A program made the position numbers and the translations under genes. From contig JAFSGY010000057.1 of assembly GCA_017440575.1 (NCBI GenBank), positions 1 through 54,155 on the forward strand: a DNA stretch of 54,155 nucleotides, written 5' to 3'. Shown piece after piece: positions 30,759 to 41,581 of this stretch (positions within the stretch are counted from its first letter, which is position 1; each line of letters begins with the position of its first letter). The notes under the pieces were generated by a model. It saw only the letters and a list, made by a program, of their open reading frames with translations. It was not told the DNA's origin and did no database searches. The DNA is from Lachnospiraceae bacterium (GTDB taxonomy: Bacteria > Bacillota > Clostridia > Lachnospirales > Lachnospiraceae).

Positions 30759-32918
30759 TTAAATGGTCTTAATTAATGTATCAAACGCTTCCAGAGTTAC
30801 CGTTTCTACACCATACTCCGTCTTAACAGTCGTCTCCTGTGTCTTCTCTGAATTATTGATTACTACTAAGGTTCTGCTCTCTGGATAGAATGCACATTCC
30901 ATATCAGGATTATCTGTGAGATAATATCCATCTGTTGCTTCCTTACCAGCTTCCAGAATCAGATTTAACAGCATCTTGGTATTTGCATTATTTACTTCGA
31001 AGGAAGACATGTAGATTCCCTGTCCCTTACCAAATGCATTCTTAGTAAGCAATGGATTATTACCATTTGCAACAAGTACCTGTGCCTTACCATCTGTTAA
31101 ATGACACTTCTGCTTCTCTGATACAAAGGAATCCTTAACCATTACCGCCTTTGCTGCTTCTTCATCTACTTCAAAGCTCCATTGACCATGACATACTCTG
31201 TCAACAATATCCTTATCAACACCAAGAACATGTGCCATTCTGAAGTAAGAATCATATCCAGCAACCGCAGATGGCTCATTTACACCGATAAACGTTCCAC
31301 CTTCGTATACCCACTTTGTCAGAGCTTCTACTAAGTCAGCATCCTTCCATGCATCGCCACCGCTCCATGCACTTGTTGCTGCTCCGGCATTAATAATAAC
31401 ATCAACATGCTCTAAAGCACCATTCTTCACATCTTCGAAGTTTAAGAAGCTTACTTCTACTGGAAGTCCACTCAATGCTTCATTGATATGAATCAGCTCA
31501 TGCATATATGTCTCATGGAAATGACCAGAAAGTGTCCATGAACGTAAGCTTCCCCAATAATGAAGAACACCAACCTTCGTCTTACAGCAATATGGATTAC
31601 CTGCCTTATGAAGTACCTTTAAGGTTCTGAATTCATCGGAAATCTTTGCAATATAATCTACAAAATCAGGGAAATCCTGCACAAGATGCAGATATCCACC
31701 AAGTCCGATTCTATCAATTGGTGCTCTAAGAAGAGCTCTTCTTACACTATTCCAATATTTCTTTGCATCTAAGGTTGGATTACCACCCTCCATAAAGGTT
31801 GGCGCTCCACCAAGTCCTACCGGGAACAGATATGGATGTAATCTTAACTCATGCGTTTCTACATCAACACCGGAACAAAGTCTTGCTTCGTAACCAGAGA
31901 ATACACACTTAATCAATCCATCAAAACCAAATTCCTTGAACTCTGGCTTATACGGCTCGATTCCTACCCAACTGTCATCATAGAATACATATGCCTTCTT
32001 GCCATATTTATGTACGATGTCAATCAATTCCTTACCAAAATCAATAACAAAACGATTGATGAAATTCATCCAATCTGTTTTCTTCTGATTTCCAGGCATA
32101 TGAGTTACATGAAGCTTACCCTGATTAATAAAATCTTCTGCCGTAAGCTCATATCCATATTTTTCTGCAAAATCATCCAACATCTTTGGACTTACAGTAA
32201 AATCATAAGAAGCCCAGTCAGAATATAAGTGTCTGTTCTTCTCACTACTTCCCCAAATCCATACAAAGTTATAGAACATAGAGGTAAAACGAACAACTGT
32301 TGTTGTCGGGTGTGTCTCACACCAGTTTACCATCCAATCCTTCAAATACTCTCTTGTCTCAGAGTAAACTGGATCGATCTGCATAATATGCTCTTTATCC
32401 CAATTATTGGTTGTATGGTTATACATGGAAATCTCTTCCCAAATACGATAAGCCAAAAAGCTTACTGTATAATTGTGCCATGGAGTAATTCCAGCTACAT
32501 GTACCGTCTGAGAGCACTCGTCATAGCTCCATTTCGCTCTATCAACCAACTCATCTGTGGTTCTGTCATAAACCTGCCAATACTTTAAAGAAGCATTGCT
32601 GCTGTTTACTCTAAACTGCTCATCAAAAAAGTCCTCCATTAATGCAATATCTATGCTATCGCAAGCTGCAACCTTAGGAGCTGTCATCAAGAATGTCTGC
32701 TGAAGTTTATCAAGGTTCTTCTTAGCCCATTCATTATGATCTCTGATAATACAAATCGTAGAATAAATACCATAACCAGCATTTGTAATCTCATCTGAAA
32801 GAACAGTACCATCACTATCACGGATTACATCTGCTCCCCATTTATCTGCCAACTCTAATGTCAGTTTCTCAAAACCTGCCTCACCAGGCAACGTAAAACT
32901 ACCTTTTTCCACTTTCAT
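30759..32918 (-). CDS. GH112 phosphorylase, probable D-galactosyl-1,4-L-rhamnose phosphorylase
   Basis: A 719-residue family GH112 enzyme. Members phosphorolyse beta-galactosides (galacto-N-biose/lacto-N-biose or galactosyl-rhamnose) to alpha-galactose 1-phosphate. The barrel shows VVRFTSMFYNFVWIWG and YDDSWVGIEPYKPEF, where the general-acid Asp is expected in YDDSW. There is no signal peptide, so it acts inside the cell. The neighbours (GH105, AraC, importer, rhamnose mutarotase) belong to rhamnogalacturonan I use, which favours galactosyl-rhamnose as substrate over host glycans. GGGAGG precedes the ATG by 4 bases. Confidence 0.85.
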   Translation of the reverse strand: MKVEKGSFTLPGEAGFEKLTLELADKWGADVIRDSDGTVLSDEITNAGYGIYSTICIIRDHNEWAKKNLDKLQQTFLMTAPKVAACDSIDIALMEDFFDEQFRVNSSNASLKYWQVYDRTTDELVDRAKWSYDECSQTVHVAGITPWHNYTVSFLAYRIWEEISMYNHTTNNWDKEHIMQIDPVYSETREYLKDWMVNWCETHPTTTVVRFTSMFYNFVWIWGSSEKNRHLYSDWASYDFTVSPKMLDDFAEKYGYELTAEDFINQGKLHVTHMPGNQKKTDWMNFINRFVIDFGKELIDIVHKYGKKAYVFYDDSWVGIEPYKPEFKEFGFDGLIKCVFSGYEARLCSGVDVETHELRLHPYLFPVGLGGAPTFMEGGNPTLDAKKYWNSVRRALLRAPIDRIGLGGYLHLVQDFPDFVDYIAKISDEFRTLKVLHKAGNPYCCKTKVGVLHYWGSLRSWTLSGHFHETYMHELIHINEALSGLPVEVSFLNFEDVKNGALEHVDVIINAGAATSAWSGGDAWKDADLVEALTKWVYEGGTFIGVNEPSAVAGYDSYFRMAHVLGVDKDIVDRVCHGQWSFEVDEEAAKAVMVKDSFVSEKQKCHLTDGKAQVLVANGNNPLLTKNAFGKGQGIYMSSFEVNNANTKMLLNLILEAGKEATDGYYLTDNPDMECAFYPESRTLVVINNSEKTQETTVKTEYGVETVTLEAFDTLIKTI

Positions 32919-32950: not shown

Positions 32951-33907
32951 TTATGATACTTCATGCCATTCCAGCGTATCCACACGCTCCTTTAATGCGC
33001 CTGCTAATCTGGAATAAGCATCCAATTTCGCCCTCTGAAACATACTCTTATATTCACGCACAATCAGTCCCGCCAGACCAAAAGCCGTGTCTTCACTATG
33101 TTTTTGAATATCCACTACCGGAACATGATAGCGCACACCAAGCTCTCTGCATATATCAGAATCTGCTTTCACACACTCAAGCATTACTCCCTGCTTTCCT
33201 TTCTCTGCCGGTGTCACCAGAATCGGGTGAGCTCCTCGTGCTCTTGTCTCATCTATATATCGTAACAAGCTGTCACGATAAGAAGCATTCGACGCATCAT
33301 CAGGCACCTTTTCTTCCTCTCTCGAAAATTGAAGCATCAGATAATCTCCAATTTTCAAATGAGCCTGAATTAGTGCATAGTGTCCTTCTGTCTGAAACAC
33401 ACACATCGACATACCTGCATTCACATGATCAGAAACAGCCACGCCTTTTTCCACAAAGGCCGGAAATATTCTGCCCCATTCCATTAACGAAACCTCTACG
33501 TCCTGTTGCTCTGTCAGCGATTGTTTGGTAACCCCGGCATCCCCTACCGCATATAAGGTAGGACATTTTGCCTGTTTTATGGTTATCCGATGCAGCTCCA
33601 GTTCTTCACCATGAATTCTGATATCAACACTGCGCTTCTCATATAAACATTTCATACCCTCAGGAATCACATCACATACATTTAACGAAAAGCTTCCATT
33701 TATTGTCTCTCTGCCTATCATATCATGCTTATATACAAGCTTTCCGGTATCGGTATAAACTACAACTGTTCCACTTCCGGTCAGTTCCATACCAATCTCA
33801 TAATTTCCGATTCTTGGAACCTCTTCCCGGAAGCGAATCTCCTCTACCAGACAATCTGTATTCACTTTTTCATCCGTTTTTGAAAATACAAATGTCCTAG
33901 AATACAT
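32951..33907 (-). CDS. SGNH/GDSL rhamnogalacturonan acetylesterase homologue without catalytic residues
   Basis: A 318-residue protein. Residues 1-110 form a beta-rich domain; residues 115-290 match YesT/RhgT-type acetylesterases block by block. Each key block is altered: GDS is GDA (A124, codon GCC), the Asn of GHND is replaced in QFSREEEK (196-198), and the terminal D-x-x-HF reads EDTAF, with D to E272 and H to A275. Surrounding framework (GDYLMLQF, LVTP) is intact, and the frame is undamaged. It is therefore a pseudoenzyme or binding protein, not a decaying frame. It starts 2 bases after the GH105 stop, so it is probably translationally coupled. Confidence 0.75.
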   Translation of the reverse strand: MYSRTFVFSKTDEKVNTDCLVEEIRFREEVPRIGNYEIGMELTGSGTVVVYTDTGKLVYKHDMIGRETINGSFSLNVCDVIPEGMKCLYEKRSVDIRIHGEELELHRITIKQAKCPTLYAVGDAGVTKQSLTEQQDVEVSLMEWGRIFPAFVEKGVAVSDHVNAGMSMCVFQTEGHYALIQAHLKIGDYLMLQFSREEEKVPDDASNASYRDSLLRYIDETRARGAHPILVTPAEKGKQGVMLECVKADSDICRELGVRYHVPVVDIQKHSEDTAFGLAGLIVREYKSMFQRAKLDAYSRLAGALKERVDTLEWHEVS

Positions 33908-33909
33908 TT

Positions 33910-34962
33910 TTACAGCGCACCATCTTTCTCCGTCTGATTAGCAATCAAAAGCTGAGAGAAGAAAGCAAGTGCAAGTCCTTGTCCCCAACCCTGAATCCAA
34001 TCTCTTGATATATTTCTGTATCCGTCTCTGTCATTCATAACTGCTGTACCACCGGATACATTTAGAACTCTTCCATCCTCACTGATATTAGCAAGTAATC
34101 CCTTAATTGATTTATTGATATATTTTGTATGTAAAGGATTGCCTCTTGTAACCATTGCCGCTGCAATACCTGCTGAAGCAGAGATTTCTTCATAAGAGCC
34201 TTCATCATCCAGAATCGTTCTCCATAATCCATTGTCAGTCTGTACAAGCTTCAATGCCGCAAGCTGCTCATTTAAAGAACCCGCAACATCCATAAACTTA
34301 GGATACAGATAACACTGTGGCAGAATTCCTCCTACCTGTGACATCGTAAATGCAGCCCATGCATTGGCACGTCCCCAGTAAAAACCTGACATATGATCCT
34401 TATTGATATTATTATATCCATGATAATAAAAACCTGTATTCGCATCCTGAAGATACTTGATATGCCAGTAATACTGATTTAACGCATCCTCAATCAGTTC
34501 TTCATCCTTTAATTCAACACCCACTCTTAACAGGAAGAATGCTGCCATAAATAAAGTATCTGCCCAACACTGCTCTGGAAAATCATTGTTTGCAGAAACA
34601 GTATGCTGTAATACACTATCACCAAAACGAAGTGCATCATTTCGGATATAGTTAATCTTGCTCATTACAAGATCCCAATATTTCTGCTCTCCTGTTGCCT
34701 TATAAAGAGAAACAAGGCAATGTCCCATAGCACAGGCATTTACTGTCCATACACTTGGAAGTCCCAGCTCAATTAGTTCATCCACTCTATCCTTTAAGAG
34801 CTTTAAATACTCTTCATTTCCAGTCTTTTCGTAAGCATCTGCAATACCATAATAAGCAACACCACATGGCCAATCCCATGTAAGATCCATCTTCATGGTT
34901 CTCTTTACAATTTTATCAATAGTTTCCAGTATCTCTTTCTCATCGAACTCAAGTTTTAACAT
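33910..34962 (-). CDS. GH105 unsaturated rhamnogalacturonyl hydrolase (YteR/YesR type)
   Basis: A 350-residue (alpha/alpha)6-barrel enzyme that removes the unsaturated galacturonate from rhamnogalacturonan oligosaccharides left by lyases. The catalytic Asp is D135 in QCWADTLFMA; GFYWGRANAW and DWIQGWGQGLAL line the barrel. No signal peptide, so cytoplasmic. The ATG at 34962 was chosen because AGGAGG lies 8 bases upstream; an earlier in-frame ATG has none. First gene after the terminator at 35137-35177, with its own promoter and putative AraC operator. Confidence 0.92.
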   Translation of the reverse strand: MLKLEFDEKEILETIDKIVKRTMKMDLTWDWPCGVAYYGIADAYEKTGNEEYLKLLKDRVDELIELGLPSVWTVNACAMGHCLVSLYKATGEQKYWDLVMSKINYIRNDALRFGDSVLQHTVSANNDFPEQCWADTLFMAAFFLLRVGVELKDEELIEDALNQYYWHIKYLQDANTGFYYHGYNNINKDHMSGFYWGRANAWAAFTMSQVGGILPQCYLYPKFMDVAGSLNEQLAALKLVQTDNGLWRTILDDEGSYEEISASAGIAAAMVTRGNPLHTKYINKSIKGLLANISEDGRVLNVSGGTAVMNDRDGYRNISRDWIQGWGQGLALAFFSQLLIANQTEKDGAL

Positions 34963-34989
34963 AATAAGTTCCTCCTCACATGAATACTT

Positions 34990-35018
34990 TTTATACATTA
35001 ACATTTTTGTTTCGTAAA
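34990..35018 (-). promoter_or_regulatory. Promoter of the GH105-SGNH-GH112 operon
   Basis: -35 TTTACG (35018-35013), 17-base spacer, -10 TATAAA (34995-34990). The poor -35 suits an activator-dependent promoter. Confidence 0.55.
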
Positions 35019-35207: not shown

Positions 35208-36983
35208 TTACTGAAGACGAGTTGTTAAACCATCATTTAACTTCTCAAGTCTCTCATCGATAACTGCCTGATATCCCATATCTAAGTATTCCTGACTTAA
35301 TGTGTCATATAATGCGTCGAACTCTTCTTCTGAACACATTGTTAACTCATCACGATACTGAGGATATACTTCTTCCTTAAGAGATGTACCATACTCTGTT
35401 ACTGCATCGATAGCTGCTGCGAACAGACAGTCACTGTTTGCATATCCAGCATTGTAAAGAGCAAGCTGACCATAGTAGTTATCAAGAATATCCTGAGTAA
35501 AGTCTTCTGGAAGTCCCTGTGGAGCGATTGCTGCAACGTCCTGCTCTACGTTACCAAATGACTTAGAAGCTGTTACAAGCATCCAGTAGTCAACGTTGTT
35601 GTTGTGTCCCTGCTGCTCTGCAAGACCAGACTGATCACCAACAGCTACAGGATTTCCATCCTCACCTACAGTATAGTTAACGCCTTCAAGACCCCATGTC
35701 ATTGTGAATAAGTTCTCTTCCTGTGCTAACCACTCTAAGTACATCATAGCAGCCTTCATTTCGTCTTCTGTTGCATCGTTAGCGAAACCAACCATTGCAC
35801 CGAATACGTTGTTAGGTCTGTAAGAGTTAGAAACTCCCCATGTCTCATCATATGTGAACTCACCGCTACATACGATTACACCAAGATCTCCATCTGGATT
35901 CTTCTCATAGAATGAGTTAAGTACGTTCATAGTAGAAGATACATAACCAGACCACTGGAATGCATTACCATTAATGAAGTCAGCTTCTACTTCAGATGCA
36001 TCTCTTAAGTAGTACTCTGGATTGATAATGCCATTATTGTAGTAGTAGTTCTGAAGCTTTAATAAGTTCTTCTGTGCTTCTGTAGAAAGAGCTGGAATCT
36101 GGTAATCACCAGTTGTAGCCCATGTAGTCTCATCCTGTGGATAGCTTCTGTAGCTGTAGTTCTGGTCAGCACCTGCACCGGAAACCTTAGAACCACTAAG
36201 CGGTTACTGATGTCCATTCTCGATTAACTTAAGATATAATTCATTTAACTCTGTCTGAGTCTGTGGATACTCTGTGAATCCAGCTTCCTTTAACCAGTCT
36301 TCACGATACCATGTAACGAAAGCATAGTTTGTGTTACCATATGGTCTCTGACCAAGTAATAAATAGTCATCTCCACCTAACTGCGTATAGCCTGTTAAGC
36401 CGTTAGCTTCCATATTTGCCCAATATGTAGGAGCAACCTGCTTGAATGTTTCGATATCGTATGGCTGAAGATATCCATCTGCCTGCCATGTAGCTAATTT
36501 GTCATAGTCGTACTCAGCACAGATAGTAGGTAAATCCTGAGCTGCTGCTAATAAAGAGTAATCTGTCATAACGTCAGAACGTGTAATTCCTACATATTCT
36601 ACAGTAACGTTATACTTGTTACCAAAGTTCTCCTGAACCCAATTTGTCCAGTAGTTGTTCTCAACGTCAGAACATCCATTACCAGAGTCACCACGATCAT
36701 AAACTGGAATCTGAAGAGTAACGTTCTCTGCGAATGGCTCCCATCCTTCGATACCAGCTACTGCTGGAGCTGCCTCAGCTTCTGTCTCTGCCTTTGGAGC
36801 TTCCTCTGCCTTTGTGTCTGCAGCAGGTGCATCTGTCTTTGTATCAGCTGCTGCTGTTTCTGTCTTTGTGTCAGTTGTAGTGTTTGCTGCTTCCTCGCTG
36901 CCGCCACATCCTGTCAAAGCTGTCATTGCCATTGCTCCTGTTAATGCAAGAGCCACTGTTTTCTGAAGAGTATTCTTCTTCAT
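35208..36983 (-). pseudogene. LplA/YtcQ-type sugar-binding lipoprotein interrupted by one in-frame stop
   Basis: The reading frame would encode 591 residues. It starts with a lipoprotein signal (MKKNTLQKTVALALTGAM, lipobox LTGC, Cys26), then a Thr/Ala/Lys/Glu-rich linker (to about 75) and a family 1 solute-binding domain. One TAA codon at 36206-36204 (after ..IENGHQ) cuts it; the same frame then continues without further damage (PLSGSKVSGAGADQNYSYRS... to ..LTTRLQ). There is no ribosome site for a restart. It would be the binding protein of the adjacent permeases, so import may be impaired unless the stop is read through or is a sequencing error. Confidence 0.85.
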
Positions 36984-37071: not shown

Positions 37072-38004
37072 TTAACCCTTAACCGCACCAATCATTGTAC
37101 CCTGTACAAAATACTTCTGTAAGAAAGGATAAATAATGATAATTGGAACAGTTACAAACATAATACTTGCTGCCTGTAATACCTCCGGAGCAGACTGGCT
37201 GATACCACCGGTGTCTGCAAGAGAAGCTGTCTGTGCTTCTGATGCAGAAGCAACTAACTGATATAACTTAAACTGAATCAACTTCAACTTTGAATCTCTT
37301 GTATAGTACATATTATCAGAATATGCATTCCAACGTCCTACTGCATAGAACAGAGAAAGTGTTGCAATAATCGGCTTTGATAAAGGAATTACAATCTTTC
37401 CAAGAATCTGGAAATTTGTTGCACCATCAAGGAATGCTGACTCTTCCAAACTATCAGGAATCGTACTCTGGAAGAAGTTCTTCATAATCAACATATTATA
37501 TGGTGAATAAATCAAAGGCAGAATCAATACCCATAACGTATCAAGGAGATTCAACTGCTGATATAACAGATACTGTGGAATCAAACCCGCACTAAAGTAC
37601 ATAGGTACCATTAAAATAAATGTGAAAAATGTTTTACCCTTTAATCTCTTCTTAGAAAGCGGATATGCTGCACATGTACATACCAACATACCAAGAACGG
37701 TAAATATTAATGTAATAATCACTGAGAAAATCATAGAGTATGTCATAGACTCATCACCAAATACTCTCTGATAAGCTTCCAGTGTAACGTCCTTCGGAAT
37801 AAAATAAACTTGTTTAGCCATAACTGCCGCATTACCTGAAACAGACTTCGCTGCTACATGCACAAACGGAAGGACACAAGTCAAACACAATATCACGATA
37901 ACTGCCATCATTACAAAATCACCGATACGGAACTTATTAATGGCTCGTGTACCACCTGCCGCATGTGATTCATCGTTATTATTCTTCTTACCCAACTTGG
38001 TCAC
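37072..38004 (-). CDS. Carbohydrate ABC transporter permease, LplC/YtcP type
   Basis: A 310-residue permease with six membrane helices and the EAA-loop EESAFLDGATNFQILGKIVI, followed by PLSKP, which docks the ATPase. The extended N-terminus is typical of the LplC/YtcP group serving complex pectin oligosaccharides. It starts 3 bases after the LplB-type gene. No ATPase gene is nearby, so a shared MsmX-like ATPase is expected. Confidence 0.92.
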   Translation of the reverse strand: MTKLGKKNNNDESHAAGGTRAINKFRIGDFVMMAVIVILCLTCVLPFVHVAAKSVSGNAAVMAKQVYFIPKDVTLEAYQRVFGDESMTYSMIFSVIITLIFTVLGMLVCTCAAYPLSKKRLKGKTFFTFILMVPMYFSAGLIPQYLLYQQLNLLDTLWVLILPLIYSPYNMLIMKNFFQSTIPDSLEESAFLDGATNFQILGKIVIPLSKPIIATLSLFYAVGRWNAYSDNMYYTRDSKLKLIQFKLYQLVASASEAQTASLADTGGISQSAPEVLQAASIMFVTVPIIIIYPFLQKYFVQGTMIGAVKG

Positions 38005-38007
38005 CTC

Positions 38008-38958
38008 CTATAACAATCCATCTTCGCCAAGCTTCTTGGCAATCTTATCAGATAAGAGTACTAATATCAGACCAATCAGAGACTGGAACAAACCAACTGC
38101 TGTTGCCATACTGAATCGTCCATTTCCAAGACCTTTGTTGTAAATATATACAGCCAACTGGTACTGGAATTCCTTAACCTGAGTATTTTCAAAAGCACTC
38201 AGACGCTCTAAGTTACTACCCATTACTCGACCAAGGTTCATAATCAACAGCGTAACAATGGTACTCTTGATACCCGGAAGAGTGATATGCCACATACGTT
38301 TCCATCTACCAGCACCGTCAATCATAGCCGCTTCATAAAGCTCGCCATTAATACCAGTGATTGCTGCCAGATACATGATGGTTCCCCATCCCATTGTCTG
38401 CCATACATTGATTAACAGATAAGTAACCGCCCAATGCCACTTCTCATTTAAGAAAGGGATACCTTCTTCAATGATTCCTGCATTCATCAATGCGATATTG
38501 ACCAAACCGGAAGATGGCTTGAACATGGTAAGTGCAACACTACCGATAATCGCCCAAGAAAGGAAATGTGGCAGATACAGGATTGTCTGCGCTGCCTTCT
38601 TGAATTTTACATAACGTAACTCATTCAACATCAATGCCAATACAATCGGCATCGGAAATCCAAGCAATAAATCTCCTAAGTTAAAAACAATAGAATTACG
38701 CAAAGCACGGATAAAGTCTCTATCCTTAAATATTTTAATAAATGTTTCCATGCCTACCCATTCACTGCCATCATAACCCTTTGCCGGCTTATAATCCATA
38801 AATGCAATTCTAAGACCCGGATATGCTGCATAGCTGAATACAACTACCATCACTATCGGGAACAGAAGCAAAAGATATAACTGCCAGTCTCTCTTAAGAG
38901 CATTTGCCCAGCTCGTTGTTGTGACAATCTCATTGCCACGTTTTTTTACTTTACTCAT
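38008..38958 (-). CDS. Carbohydrate ABC transporter permease, LplB/YteP type
   Basis: A 316-residue permease with six helices and the EAA-loop YEAAMIDGAGRWKRMWHITL, then PGIKS. LplB/YteP proteins pair with LplC/YtcP and a long lipoprotein binder, as here. GGAGG precedes the ATG by 11 bases. First gene of the importer operon, divergent from the AraC regulator. Confidence 0.92.
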   Translation of the reverse strand: MSKVKKRGNEIVTTTSWANALKRDWQLYLLLLFPIVMVVVFSYAAYPGLRIAFMDYKPAKGYDGSEWVGMETFIKIFKDRDFIRALRNSIVFNLGDLLLGFPMPIVLALMLNELRYVKFKKAAQTILYLPHFLSWAIIGSVALTMFKPSSGLVNIALMNAGIIEEGIPFLNEKWHWAVTYLLINVWQTMGWGTIMYLAAITGINGELYEAAMIDGAGRWKRMWHITLPGIKSTIVTLLIMNLGRVMGSNLERLSAFENTQVKEFQYQLAVYIYNKGLGNGRFSMATAVGLFQSLIGLILVLLSDKIAKKLGEDGLL

Positions 38959-39232: not shown

Positions 39233-39377
39233 ATGGCCTTTTTTATCGTATTGTTTTGGTTATTTTTGAGAAATTAGTTATCTTTTCAATTCAGATATCT
39301 TATTTTTCTCCGCAAAAATGACCATTTATGTTAATAACATTCGTGATTATTACCAAACAGCTCAGGAGGTTACCTAT

Positions 39378-40337
39378 ATGGCAAAGCCAAAAACAAGCGT
39401 TGCAGAATACCGCAACTACTATCTACCATTTGATTTTCCGGTACTACTGTTATCCGGTGAACACTGGAAGATTTCTAACGTTCCAAGTAAGAATCTTCAT
39501 TTTCATAACTGCTTAGAAATAGGAGTATGTCACTCCGAAAGCGGATATATGGAATTCAACGGAAGACAGGAGCGTTTATTTTTCAAAGAAGGAGATATTA
39601 CCTGTGTTCCACGAAATATCCCACATACAACATACAGCTCACCAAATACCGAGAGTCATTGGTCATACCTGTTTATCGATCCGGGGGAGTTGTTCCGAAA
39701 TGTATTACCAAGCATGGCAAGAGAATTAGACTTATCCATTTCTGCCTATGAGGAATATAAATACATCTTTAGCCGTGACGAGTATCCTCAGGTTTATCAG
39801 CTTACCATGACGATTATTCATGAAATGGAAGAGAAGAAGCCACATTATCAGACCAGTGTTCTTGGACTACTTCTTTCCTTATGTATAGAGCTTCACCGCA
39901 TCCAAAGTGAAAGCGGTCAGAAGATTACACAGACAGGAAATACTCCCGAAAATGCGATGGTTATTTCTCCGGTACTTGATTATATAGAAGATAACTATGC
40001 ACAGCAGTTTGATATTAACTACCTTGCGGATATCTGTCGTCTAAGTCCCACCCACTTTAGAAGACTCTTCCACTCCATTATGGGAACGAGTCCTCTGGAC
40101 TTTGTCAATAACACTAGAATTACCAAGGCTTGTAATTTACTACGAAGCACAGAACATTCTATCTTAGAAATCTCTGAAATGGTTGGTTTCCGTTCGGTAT
40201 CAAGCTTCAACCGCCATTTCATGGACGTGATGCAGATTACACCACGAAACTATCGTAACGAGACCTTAATCGCCAAGGAAAGTCAGGAAAAGCTCTCTAT
40301 TATGGAATATAAGGGATGGATGTATCCTGAAAAATAA
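39378..40337 (+). CDS. AraC family transcriptional regulator of the pectin locus
   Basis: A 319-residue regulator. The N-terminal cupin domain (about 20-150; NLHFHNCLEIGVCHSESGY, FKEGDITCVPRNIPHTTY) senses sugar; two helix-turn-helix motifs lie at about 215-310 (FDINYLADICRLSPTHFRRLF; ILEISEMVGFRSVSSFNRHF). The ATG at 39378 was chosen because AGGAGG lies 8 bases upstream; a start 60 bases earlier lacks a site. Divergent from the importer operon it likely controls, and a candidate binder of the 21-bp-spaced repeats at 35030-35058. Confidence 0.92.
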   Translation: MAKPKTSVAEYRNYYLPFDFPVLLLSGEHWKISNVPSKNLHFHNCLEIGVCHSESGYMEFNGRQERLFFKEGDITCVPRNIPHTTYSSPNTESHWSYLFIDPGELFRNVLPSMARELDLSISAYEEYKYIFSRDEYPQVYQLTMTIIHEMEEKKPHYQTSVLGLLLSLCIELHRIQSESGQKITQTGNTPENAMVISPVLDYIEDNYAQQFDINYLADICRLSPTHFRRLFHSIMGTSPLDFVNNTRITKACNLLRSTEHSILEISEMVGFRSVSSFNRHFMDVMQITPRNYRNETLIAKESQEKLSIMEYKGWMYPEK

Positions 40338-40378: not shown

Positions 40379-41254
40379 TTAATCTTCGATAAAATTATAC
40401 TTTATCCAATTCTTACATAACTCAATCCACTGTGGTATCTGTGGATCAATTTCTTTTAAGGAAGGCACACACGCTGTTTCCTTCGTACCGAGTGAATAGC
40501 CATGTCCACCGTTTGGAAATACATGGTATTCAAACTTTACGCCTGCTGCCCTAAGAGCAGAAGCAAAGAACAAGGAATTCTCTAATGGAACTGCGCCATC
40601 CTCAAAGGTATGCCACATAAATACAGGCGGCATATTTGCTGTTACCTGATTCTCAAGGCTAAGCTTTGCTTCTAGTTCCTTTCCACTCAAGCCTGTACAT
40701 TCACAACCTTCTACTGCCTTCTTGCCCACCACATTTTCAAAGGAACCTCTGTGTGCAAACTCTCCAGCAGTAATAACCGGATAAGCCAGAATCAAACCAT
40801 TAGGCTGATAGCTTTCCTTAGTCACACCTAATTCCTTCTTCATAAGTGTTTCTAACCATTCCTCATGCCAGAAGCATCCCAAACTCGCCACCAAATGTCC
40901 TCCGGCAGAAAAGCCTCCTACGATAATCTGATTCGATGCAACCGTTAACTCCTCTGCATGCTCTCTGATATAAGAAACCGAAGCCGCAAGCTCTAACAAA
41001 TGCTGTGGGAATACAACACCATGCTCCGCAATATCATATCGCAAAACTGCCGCATGACAACCTGCTGTCAGCAGCTGCATGGCAATCGCCTCTCCCTCAC
41101 GAGGAGATACATGCCCATATCCGCCTCCCGGACAGATTAACACCATTGGACGTTTTCTGTCACCATATACCTCAGGATATTGATCCTGAATATATAAGGT
41201 AAGATTTGCCTGCACAGACTGTGCAATCTTTATATCAATCACTTCATATTTCAT
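40379..41254 (-). CDS. Alpha/beta-hydrolase esterase, probable carbohydrate acetylesterase
   Basis: A 291-residue intracellular esterase of the BD-FAE/acetylxylan-esterase-like group. The oxyanion segment CPGGGYGHVSPREGE, nucleophile elbow GFSAGGH, Asp in TFEDGAVP and His in NGGHGYSLG make a complete triad. Its location behind rhamnose mutarotase suggests deacetylation of pectin oligosaccharides. It may supply the activity lost by the SGNH homologue at 32951-33907; that link is inference. Confidence 0.85.
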   Translation of the reverse strand: MKYEVIDIKIAQSVQANLTLYIQDQYPEVYGDRKRPMVLICPGGGYGHVSPREGEAIAMQLLTAGCHAAVLRYDIAEHGVVFPQHLLELAASVSYIREHAEELTVASNQIIVGGFSAGGHLVASLGCFWHEEWLETLMKKELGVTKESYQPNGLILAYPVITAGEFAHRGSFENVVGKKAVEGCECTGLSGKELEAKLSLENQVTANMPPVFMWHTFEDGAVPLENSLFFASALRAAGVKFEYHVFPNGGHGYSLGTKETACVPSLKEIDPQIPQWIELCKNWIKYNFIED

Positions 41255-41269
41255 GAAACAATACCTCGA

Positions 41270-41581
41270 TTAATCCAGATGGAATACATTCTGTAAGTCA
41301 ATAGAAACGGGACTGTTATCCGGATTCGTCTCCATAATGTCCGCCATAAAATCCCACCACTTGCGGTTAATCGCTGTATCAGCTCCCTTTGCCCAGAGCT
41401 CTTCATCCTCGATTTCGATATAGCCGAATAAGGTCAAGGTCTCCTTATCAAGGAAAATAGTATAGTTCTTTCCACCATGTTCATGAATCATGTCCTGCAT
41501 CTCAGGCCATAACTCATTATGTCTCTTTTCATACTCTGCTTCCTGTCCTGGGAATAATTTCATCTTAAATCCTTTAATCAT
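41270..41581 (-). CDS. rhaM: L-rhamnose mutarotase
   Basis: A 103-residue RhaM-family protein that interconverts alpha and beta anomers of L-rhamnose. The family pattern KLFPGQEAEYEKRHNELWPE is present, with candidate catalytic His21, and WWDFMADIMETNPDN near the C-terminus. GGAGGG precedes the ATG. Its presence is the strongest evidence that rhamnose is released by this locus. No rhaA, rhaB or rhaD gene lies in the window. Confidence 0.93.
   Translation of the reverse strand: MIKGFKMKLFPGQEAEYEKRHNELWPEMQDMIHEHGGKNYTIFLDKETLTLFGYIEIEDEELWAKGADTAINRKWWDFMADIMETNPDNSPVSIDLQNVFHLD

Follow-up and report, generated by a model that had tools for sequence, protein, structure and literature searches.

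Why would an operon keep the gene for an enzyme that has lost its active site? The question is raised by a gene of a Lachnospiraceae bacterium (contig JAFSGY010000057.1), located within a 54,155-nucleotide stretch of DNA that was analysed as a whole and is referred to here as the window. By alignment with canonical relatives, the encoded protein is a CE12-like SGNH protein without an SGNH active site or a C-terminal tail and with much of the N-terminal domain gone, whose reading frame, hydrophobic core and operon position are preserved. We hold with moderate confidence that it is a retained pseudoenzyme with a non-catalytic role, probably in protein–protein contacts. Its predicted pseudoenzyme character is the firm part of this reading; the naming of GH105 or GH112 as binding partner is a guess.

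The operon around the SGNH gene

The gene is a single open frame of 318 codons with an ATG start (32951–33907, minus strand). Directly upstream is a GH105 gene (33910–35004, minus strand; Pfam Glyco_hydro_88), whose stop lies 2 bp from the start of the SGNH frame, and directly downstream, after 32 bp, is the gene for a GH112 phosphorylase (30759–32918, minus strand; Pfam Lact_bio_phlase and NCBIfam TIGR02336). The intact frame and its coupling to GH105, as described in an earlier sequence-only reading of this DNA, are thus confirmed.

Preceding GH105 on the same strand are the genes of an ABC importer, comprising a solute-binding protein (35208–36983), identified by its position and its similarity to relatives, and two permeases (37072–38004 and 38008–38958), identified by the Pfam domain name BPD_transp_1. 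The relative of the solute-binding protein in the congener G417 has no Pfam match at 1e-5. In the window this gene is full length and 76% identical in product to the G417 protein apart from one in-frame stop (36204–36206, minus strand), which fits a recent change in selection, a polymorphism or an assembly error. Beyond the importer are a divergent AraC-type regulator (39318–40337, plus strand), an alpha/beta hydrolase (BD-FAE; 40379–41254, minus strand) that is a candidate alternative acetylesterase with a weak PaeX-like match below the cut-off, and a member of the L-rhamnose mutarotase family (41270–41581, minus strand), which fits a rhamnose-containing substrate.

The operon probably serves the use of rhamnogalacturonan-I fragments, a substrate suggested by GH105, the rhamnose mutarotase and the CE12 relatives. 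Galactosyl-rhamnose phosphorylase activity occurs in GH112. As the GH112 protein of the window scores 673 bits against the curated NCBIfam model for 1,3-beta-galactosyl-N-acetylhexosamine phosphorylase (cut-off 560), its substrate could instead be galacto-N-biose.

The neighbours evolve slowly. Among the window and the congeners G417 and G406, GH105 and GH112 are 82–91% identical (GH105 of the window is 89% identical to that of G417 and 91% to that of G406; GH112 of the window and G417, 82%) and one permease 78–85%, compared with 38–45% for the SGNH proteins and 38% for the SGNH proteins of the window and G417.

A CE12-type framework

Searched alone with phmmer, the window protein matches YxiM (2o14) with an E-value of 1.3e-6. 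Its match to NCBIfam PaeY has an E-value of 3.5e-6, yet scores 26 bits where the cut-off is 1000, and that to Pfam Lipase_GDSL_2 (E = 0.016) is below the gathering score; a first contig scan using the window protein alone found no relatives. A profile built from the window protein and 47 relatives finds 2o14 with an E-value of 4.8e-43 and the Aspergillus rhamnogalacturonan acetylesterase (RGAE; 1deo) with one of 4.7e-14, which places the protein in a CE12-type family, and the canonical relative in G406 matches it with an E-value of 2.3e-67. Homology is significant along the domain, making the protein a member of the SGNH fold family by descent. The RGAE-type framework recognized in the sequence-only reading is therefore real, though weak when the query is used alone.

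Loss of the active site and of flanking residues

In block I, the family motif GDS, present in 88 of 88 canonical rows, is GDA at residues 122–124, with Ala124 in place of the nucleophilic Ser. Block III, [AG]HND in the family, reads SREE at residues 195–198, HND being replaced by R196-E197-E198. Gly165 of block II is retained, so not every SGNH letter is lost. From block V about 25 residues are deleted, including the entire D-x-T-H (Asp-x-x-His) loop. The sequence-only reading had reported the first two changes correctly; the third it had taken for a substitution of D-x-HF by E272-T-A275-F, a misalignment, given that the region of the loop is deleted. Of its broader claim that Ser, Asn, Asp and His had been lost together, the first three parts stand. 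His270-Ser271 aligns with the catalytic His-Ser in one alignment and lies beside a gap in others; the Asp-containing stretch is missing whichever of these alignments is used, whether His is lost varies among them, and His270 may correspond to the former catalytic His.

Could the protein still be an esterase, with an active site that has migrated or is of a different kind? His270 would suit such an enzyme, and SGNH enzymes that lack the block-V acid exist, CE2 and an esterase of S. scabies being named in a passage of PMC9487903. The nucleophile of the window protein is Ala, however, and its oxyanion-hole Asn is Glu, and the same two positions are replaced otherwise in two further proteins described below (Glu and Thr in G417; Thr and Gly in a second copy in G425), making this explanation very improbable. 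The catalytic residues are lost as far as the sequence tells, which supports the proposed loss of SGNH catalysis. A homology-based CE12 or GDSL label can thus mislead about activity, and the gene is to be removed from the acetylesterase count of this species.

Outside the active site, 114 residues precede the SGNH domain in the window protein, compared with 177–195 in five intact congeners (a shortfall of 63–81), 180 in G417 and 154 in the G425 copy. All three proteins lack the C-terminal tail of the congeners' slot enzymes, which has similarity to SLH domains: the tail in L071 matches Pfam SLH (E = 4e-6), two other canonical proteins (L091 and L102) have no Pfam SLH match, and the family profile hits SLH structures from S-layer proteins at 2e-4. 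The canonical protein at L071:7269–9056 and its relatives carry this SLH-like tail, yet show no obvious signal peptide by eye.

Among 58 positions of the SGNH region that are at least 90% conserved in canonical rows, the window protein retains 23, G417 36 and the G425 copy 25. An enrichment of losses in the catalytic blocks was considered and is not significant for the window protein, which keeps 10 of 28 conserved positions in the blocks and 13 of 30 outside (Fisher P = 0.60); the corresponding figures are 13 of 28 and 23 of 30 for G417 (P = 0.03), and 9 of 28 and 16 of 30 for the G425 copy (P = 0.12). With losses reaching so far beyond the catalytic blocks, straightforward binding of the former substrate is disfavoured, and the suggestion in the sequence-only reading that acetylated oligosaccharides are bound through the old site is weakened.

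A broader version of that suggestion is a substrate-binding or sensing protein that still binds sugars, by its N-terminal domain or in the former active-site cleft, and serves as a buffer or sensor of acetylated oligosaccharides. YxiM has a jelly-roll domain related to galactose-binding domains, according to a section of PMC9487903, and what remains of the N-terminal domain in the window protein is as similar to G406 (45 of 114 residues) as is the rest of the SGNH region once the catalytic blocks are set aside (58 of 138). We nevertheless consider such a role unlikely, owing to the shortened N-terminal domain and to the conserved positions that survive, 2 of 5 in that domain and, as noted, 13 of 30 in the non-block SGNH part.

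Site loss in other genomes

Relatives were collected by a scan with two motif patterns that allowed S, A or E at the nucleophile. At least 593 stretches were found and 479 confirmed, and the best 80 were used, so the sample is not unbiased and other forms could be missed. Among these best 80 of 479 loci, 52 have the order GH105–SGNH–GH112, 7 have GH105 only and 21 have neither neighbour. The main alignment has 98 rows, of which 10 were dropped: four pseudoenzyme rows (the window; L075 and L084, which are one G417 contig; and L063), five same-contig duplicates and a short second SGNH frame on L092. All 88 distinct canonical sequences that remain, including six pairs that share 95% identity or above and some that lie outside the operon slot, have Ser, Gly, Asn, Asp and His. 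An earlier alignment of 62 rows, inspected by eye in blocks I–III, gave residues missing only in the window, L075 and L063; in it, the frame of L048 begins after block I.

At the five positions, the window protein has Ala, Gly, Glu, a deletion, and a deletion or shift. The slot protein of G417 has Glu, Gln, Thr, Asp and Arg, keeping the Asp, and the second copy of G425 has Thr, Gly, Gly and two deletions, keeping the Gly. The latter (L063:5404–6456) lies directly behind an ABC importer, with neither GH105 nor GH112 nearby within the 12.5 kb examined. With the G417 protein as query, 397 family genomes were searched, and 24 of the other 396 gave matches at 1e-30. Outside the source genome there are 25 such places, which comprise 24 open frames of 434–667 residues and one of 328. 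Chance or an assembly artefact is rejected as the source of the window protein: its changes are numerous, and the loss of the active site recurs in the same slot in a second genome, which makes an assembly error unlikely.

On whether the losses in the window and G417 are shared or parallel, the SGNH tree and the neighbouring genes conflict. In the SGNH tree the two proteins group together (97% with L063 included, 98% without); the alternative that joins the window to G406 has a p-AU of 0.046, a p-KH of 0.054 and a p-SH of 0.080, and the topology of the neighbour genes a p-AU of 0.008. Codon fits were compared for two arrangements, the window with G417 and the window with G406: with free branch lengths the SGNH gene favours the former by 20.0 lnL units, and the neighbour genes favour the latter by 21.5. 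Neighbour trees likewise join the window to G406 (80% with outgroups, 91% for protein, 74% for first and second positions), except that all nucleotide positions together place it with G417 at 44%. Long-branch attraction can be the source of the grouping of the window with G417 in the SGNH tree. The G425 copy is placed next to L095 (73%) among other canonical enzymes, in a clade with 100% support, which suggests a separate origin of its site loss.

Slot content across the genus

Of 38 genomes of the genus searched, 15 could be scored for the slot between GH105 and GH112; in the other 23, one of the two close enzymes was missing, the two lay on different contigs (G430) or only more distant enzymes were present. 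The slot gene is intact in seven (G406, G413, G425, G428, G432, G427 and G429, the contigs of the last two ending before GH112), has lost its site in two (the window and G417) and is absent from six (G400, G411, G414, G419, G422 and G424). In these six, GH105 and GH112 are less than 130 bp apart with no gene between them, and the six species form a clade of their own, apart from the window. The slot gene is also absent from L158. Because six congeners lack it, the gene is not essential for GH105 or GH112; it is dispensable for the pathway and could be in the process of being lost.

Selection on the window protein

In pairwise dN/dS the synonymous sites are saturated, and omega was estimated as a branch average. 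In one set of fits, synonymous branch lengths were tied to those of the neighbour genes, with a common scale that was fitted or set to 1 or 2. With the scale fitted, omega is 0.33 for the window, 0.26 for G417 and 0.063 for the background; with a scale of 1, the values are 0.68, 0.53 and 0.126. The alternative topology gives 0.29, 0.22 and 0.068 with the fitted scale, and 0.59, 0.45 and 0.135 with a scale of 1. Taking together the fits with the scale fitted or set to 2, omega is 0.28–0.33 for the window, 0.22–0.26 for G417 and 0.06–0.07 for the background. With tied lengths the window protein therefore evolves about 4–5 times faster than its active orthologues (0.28–0.68 versus 0.06–0.14). With free lengths there is no rise (window 0.07–0.09, G417 0.06–0.08, background 0.10, both branches at the bound), and how strong the acceleration is therefore depends on the clock used. 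All fits, with free as well as tied lengths, reject an omega of 1; the lowest 2ΔlnL is 20.2 (window, scale 1).

Neutral evolution was also simulated in 2,000 runs that started from the codons of G406, took all divergence from G406 as neutral and redrew stops. The hydrophobic core is retained at 91.9% in the window protein, 91.3% in G417 and 88.2% in the G425 copy, against 71%, 75% and 65% under neutrality and 99.3% in the intact protein of G428; for each of the three proteins, none of the 2,000 runs reaches the observed value. Replacements are more conservative than in the neutral runs, again with 0 of 2,000 reaching the observation, and polar columns carry a weaker signal (8, 33 and 28 of 2,000 runs for the window, G417 and the G425 copy, respectively). 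The frame of the window protein stays free of stops after a neutral phase of 0.03, 0.06 or 0.1 substitutions per site in 26%, 7% and 1.5% of runs, and that of G417 in 15%, 2% and 0.4%. Core retention alone allows a neutral phase of 0.1 in 49% and of 0.15 in 13% of window runs.

A neutral pseudogene over the entire branch is rejected by the omega below 1 in all fits, the core retention and the open frame. The protein has been kept by selection through most of its divergence, as had been proposed from the sequence, although selection may have ended recently, within the last ~0.1 substitutions per site. The sequence-only reading had held that the same changes in only one genome, with dN/dS near 1, would mean simple decay; instead, the site is lost in G417 as well, and an omega of 1 is rejected.

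The simulations bear on the notion of a frame-keeping spacer, in which the open frame alone would let translation reach GH112 without polarity and the residues would be irrelevant. The tight packing, with its gaps of 2 and 32 bp, would suit a spacer, but both core retention and conservative replacement exceed what the runs with redrawn stops produce, and the six gene-less congeners join GH105 to GH112 without anything between; we give this idea hardly any credence.

Slow decay is a more serious alternative. According to it, the esterase has become redundant and its constraint relaxed, and the gene, with no present function, is an intermediate on the way to loss. The three states of the slot within one genus (seven intact, two with the site lost, six without the gene), the omega raised 4–5-fold in tied-length fits, the in-frame stop in the adjacent solute-binding gene and the spread of losses beyond the catalytic blocks are all consistent with this. 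It is harder to reconcile with omega below 1 throughout, with core retention that no neutral run attains, with a frame open in two divergent species and with the separate clade formed by the six gene-less species. We regard slow decay as possible but doubtful.

A proposed role, and other esterases of the genome

As a retained pseudoenzyme, the window protein would derive from a CE12-type acetylesterase of the kind frequently encoded between GH105 and GH112 in Lachnospiraceae operons. It would still fold, and selection would keep it because it serves the same cytoplasmic pathway in a non-catalytic way. Most likely it would contact a partner whose gene shares its messenger, either GH105 or GH112, and act as an accessory, stabilizing or regulatory subunit. 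Deacetylation would fall to other esterases of the cell, either an SGNH enzyme encoded on contig C14 or the alpha/beta hydrolase of this locus.

More tentatively, the window protein may belong to a bacterial CE12 pseudoenzyme lineage that, having lost catalysis, the C-terminal tail and much of the substrate signature, has specialized as a non-catalytic subunit, or as a regulator, of the GH105/GH112 pathway, with the site lost at least twice in the genus, pointing to recurrent use of the dead fold. The two losses counted here are that of the operon-slot proteins (the window species and G417) and that of the separate G425 paralogue behind its importer.

The SGNH enzyme on contig C14 of the same genome (L170:4978–5682) has 234 residues, with Ser, Asn and D-x-x-H present, and is encoded by the last gene of a different ABC-importer operon. 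A weak SGNH match (L003, contig C11:41385–41804; E = 2.5e-5) lies inside an open frame of 2,925 residues.

The alpha/beta hydrolase, which the sequence-only reading had put forward as the true esterase, may have that activity, but its gene also adjoins the operon in four congeners with an intact slot enzyme (L079–L082). Compensation by this hydrolase for the lost activity was considered and is not supported, its gene standing beside intact operons too; with a second SGNH enzyme in the genome as well, it is not a species-specific compensation.

Comparison with known systems

One genus offers, in one slot, a gene that is intact, has lost its site or is absent, flanked by slowly evolving genes that serve as a clock, and this combination makes the question of why dead enzymes are kept directly testable in a sugar pathway of gut bacteria. 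Among the papers listed in searches of the openly licensed PMC literature, no bacterial CE12 pseudoenzyme appeared.

Among the closest known systems are the enzymes that occupy the same operon position in other Lachnospiraceae (L071–L074 and L076). They are 24–42% identical to the window protein, mostly have about 550–650 residues and, unlike it, keep Ser, Gly, Asn, Asp and His. The CE12 RGAEs of Aspergillus (1deo) and Bacillus (YxiM, 2o14) share the homologous SGNH domain and, in the case of YxiM, the N-terminal domain as well, and a pectin context is plausibly common to them and to the window, with its GH105, rhamnose mutarotase and ABC importer. In contrast to these enzymes, the window protein is without the nucleophile, the oxyanion Asn and the block-V loop, and its N-terminal domain is shortened.

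Pseudoenzymes that may have taken a similar path are found in eukaryotes. For the plant GDSL pseudoenzyme At1g54030, an SGNH protein, a passage of PMC4757993 claims a new cellular function; like the window protein, it has been kept after loss of activity, but it belongs to a different subfamily. In beetles, inactive GH28 pectinases have been kept in the pectin pathway and influence it, as stated in the abstract of PMC6549527; these insect proteins are of an unrelated family.
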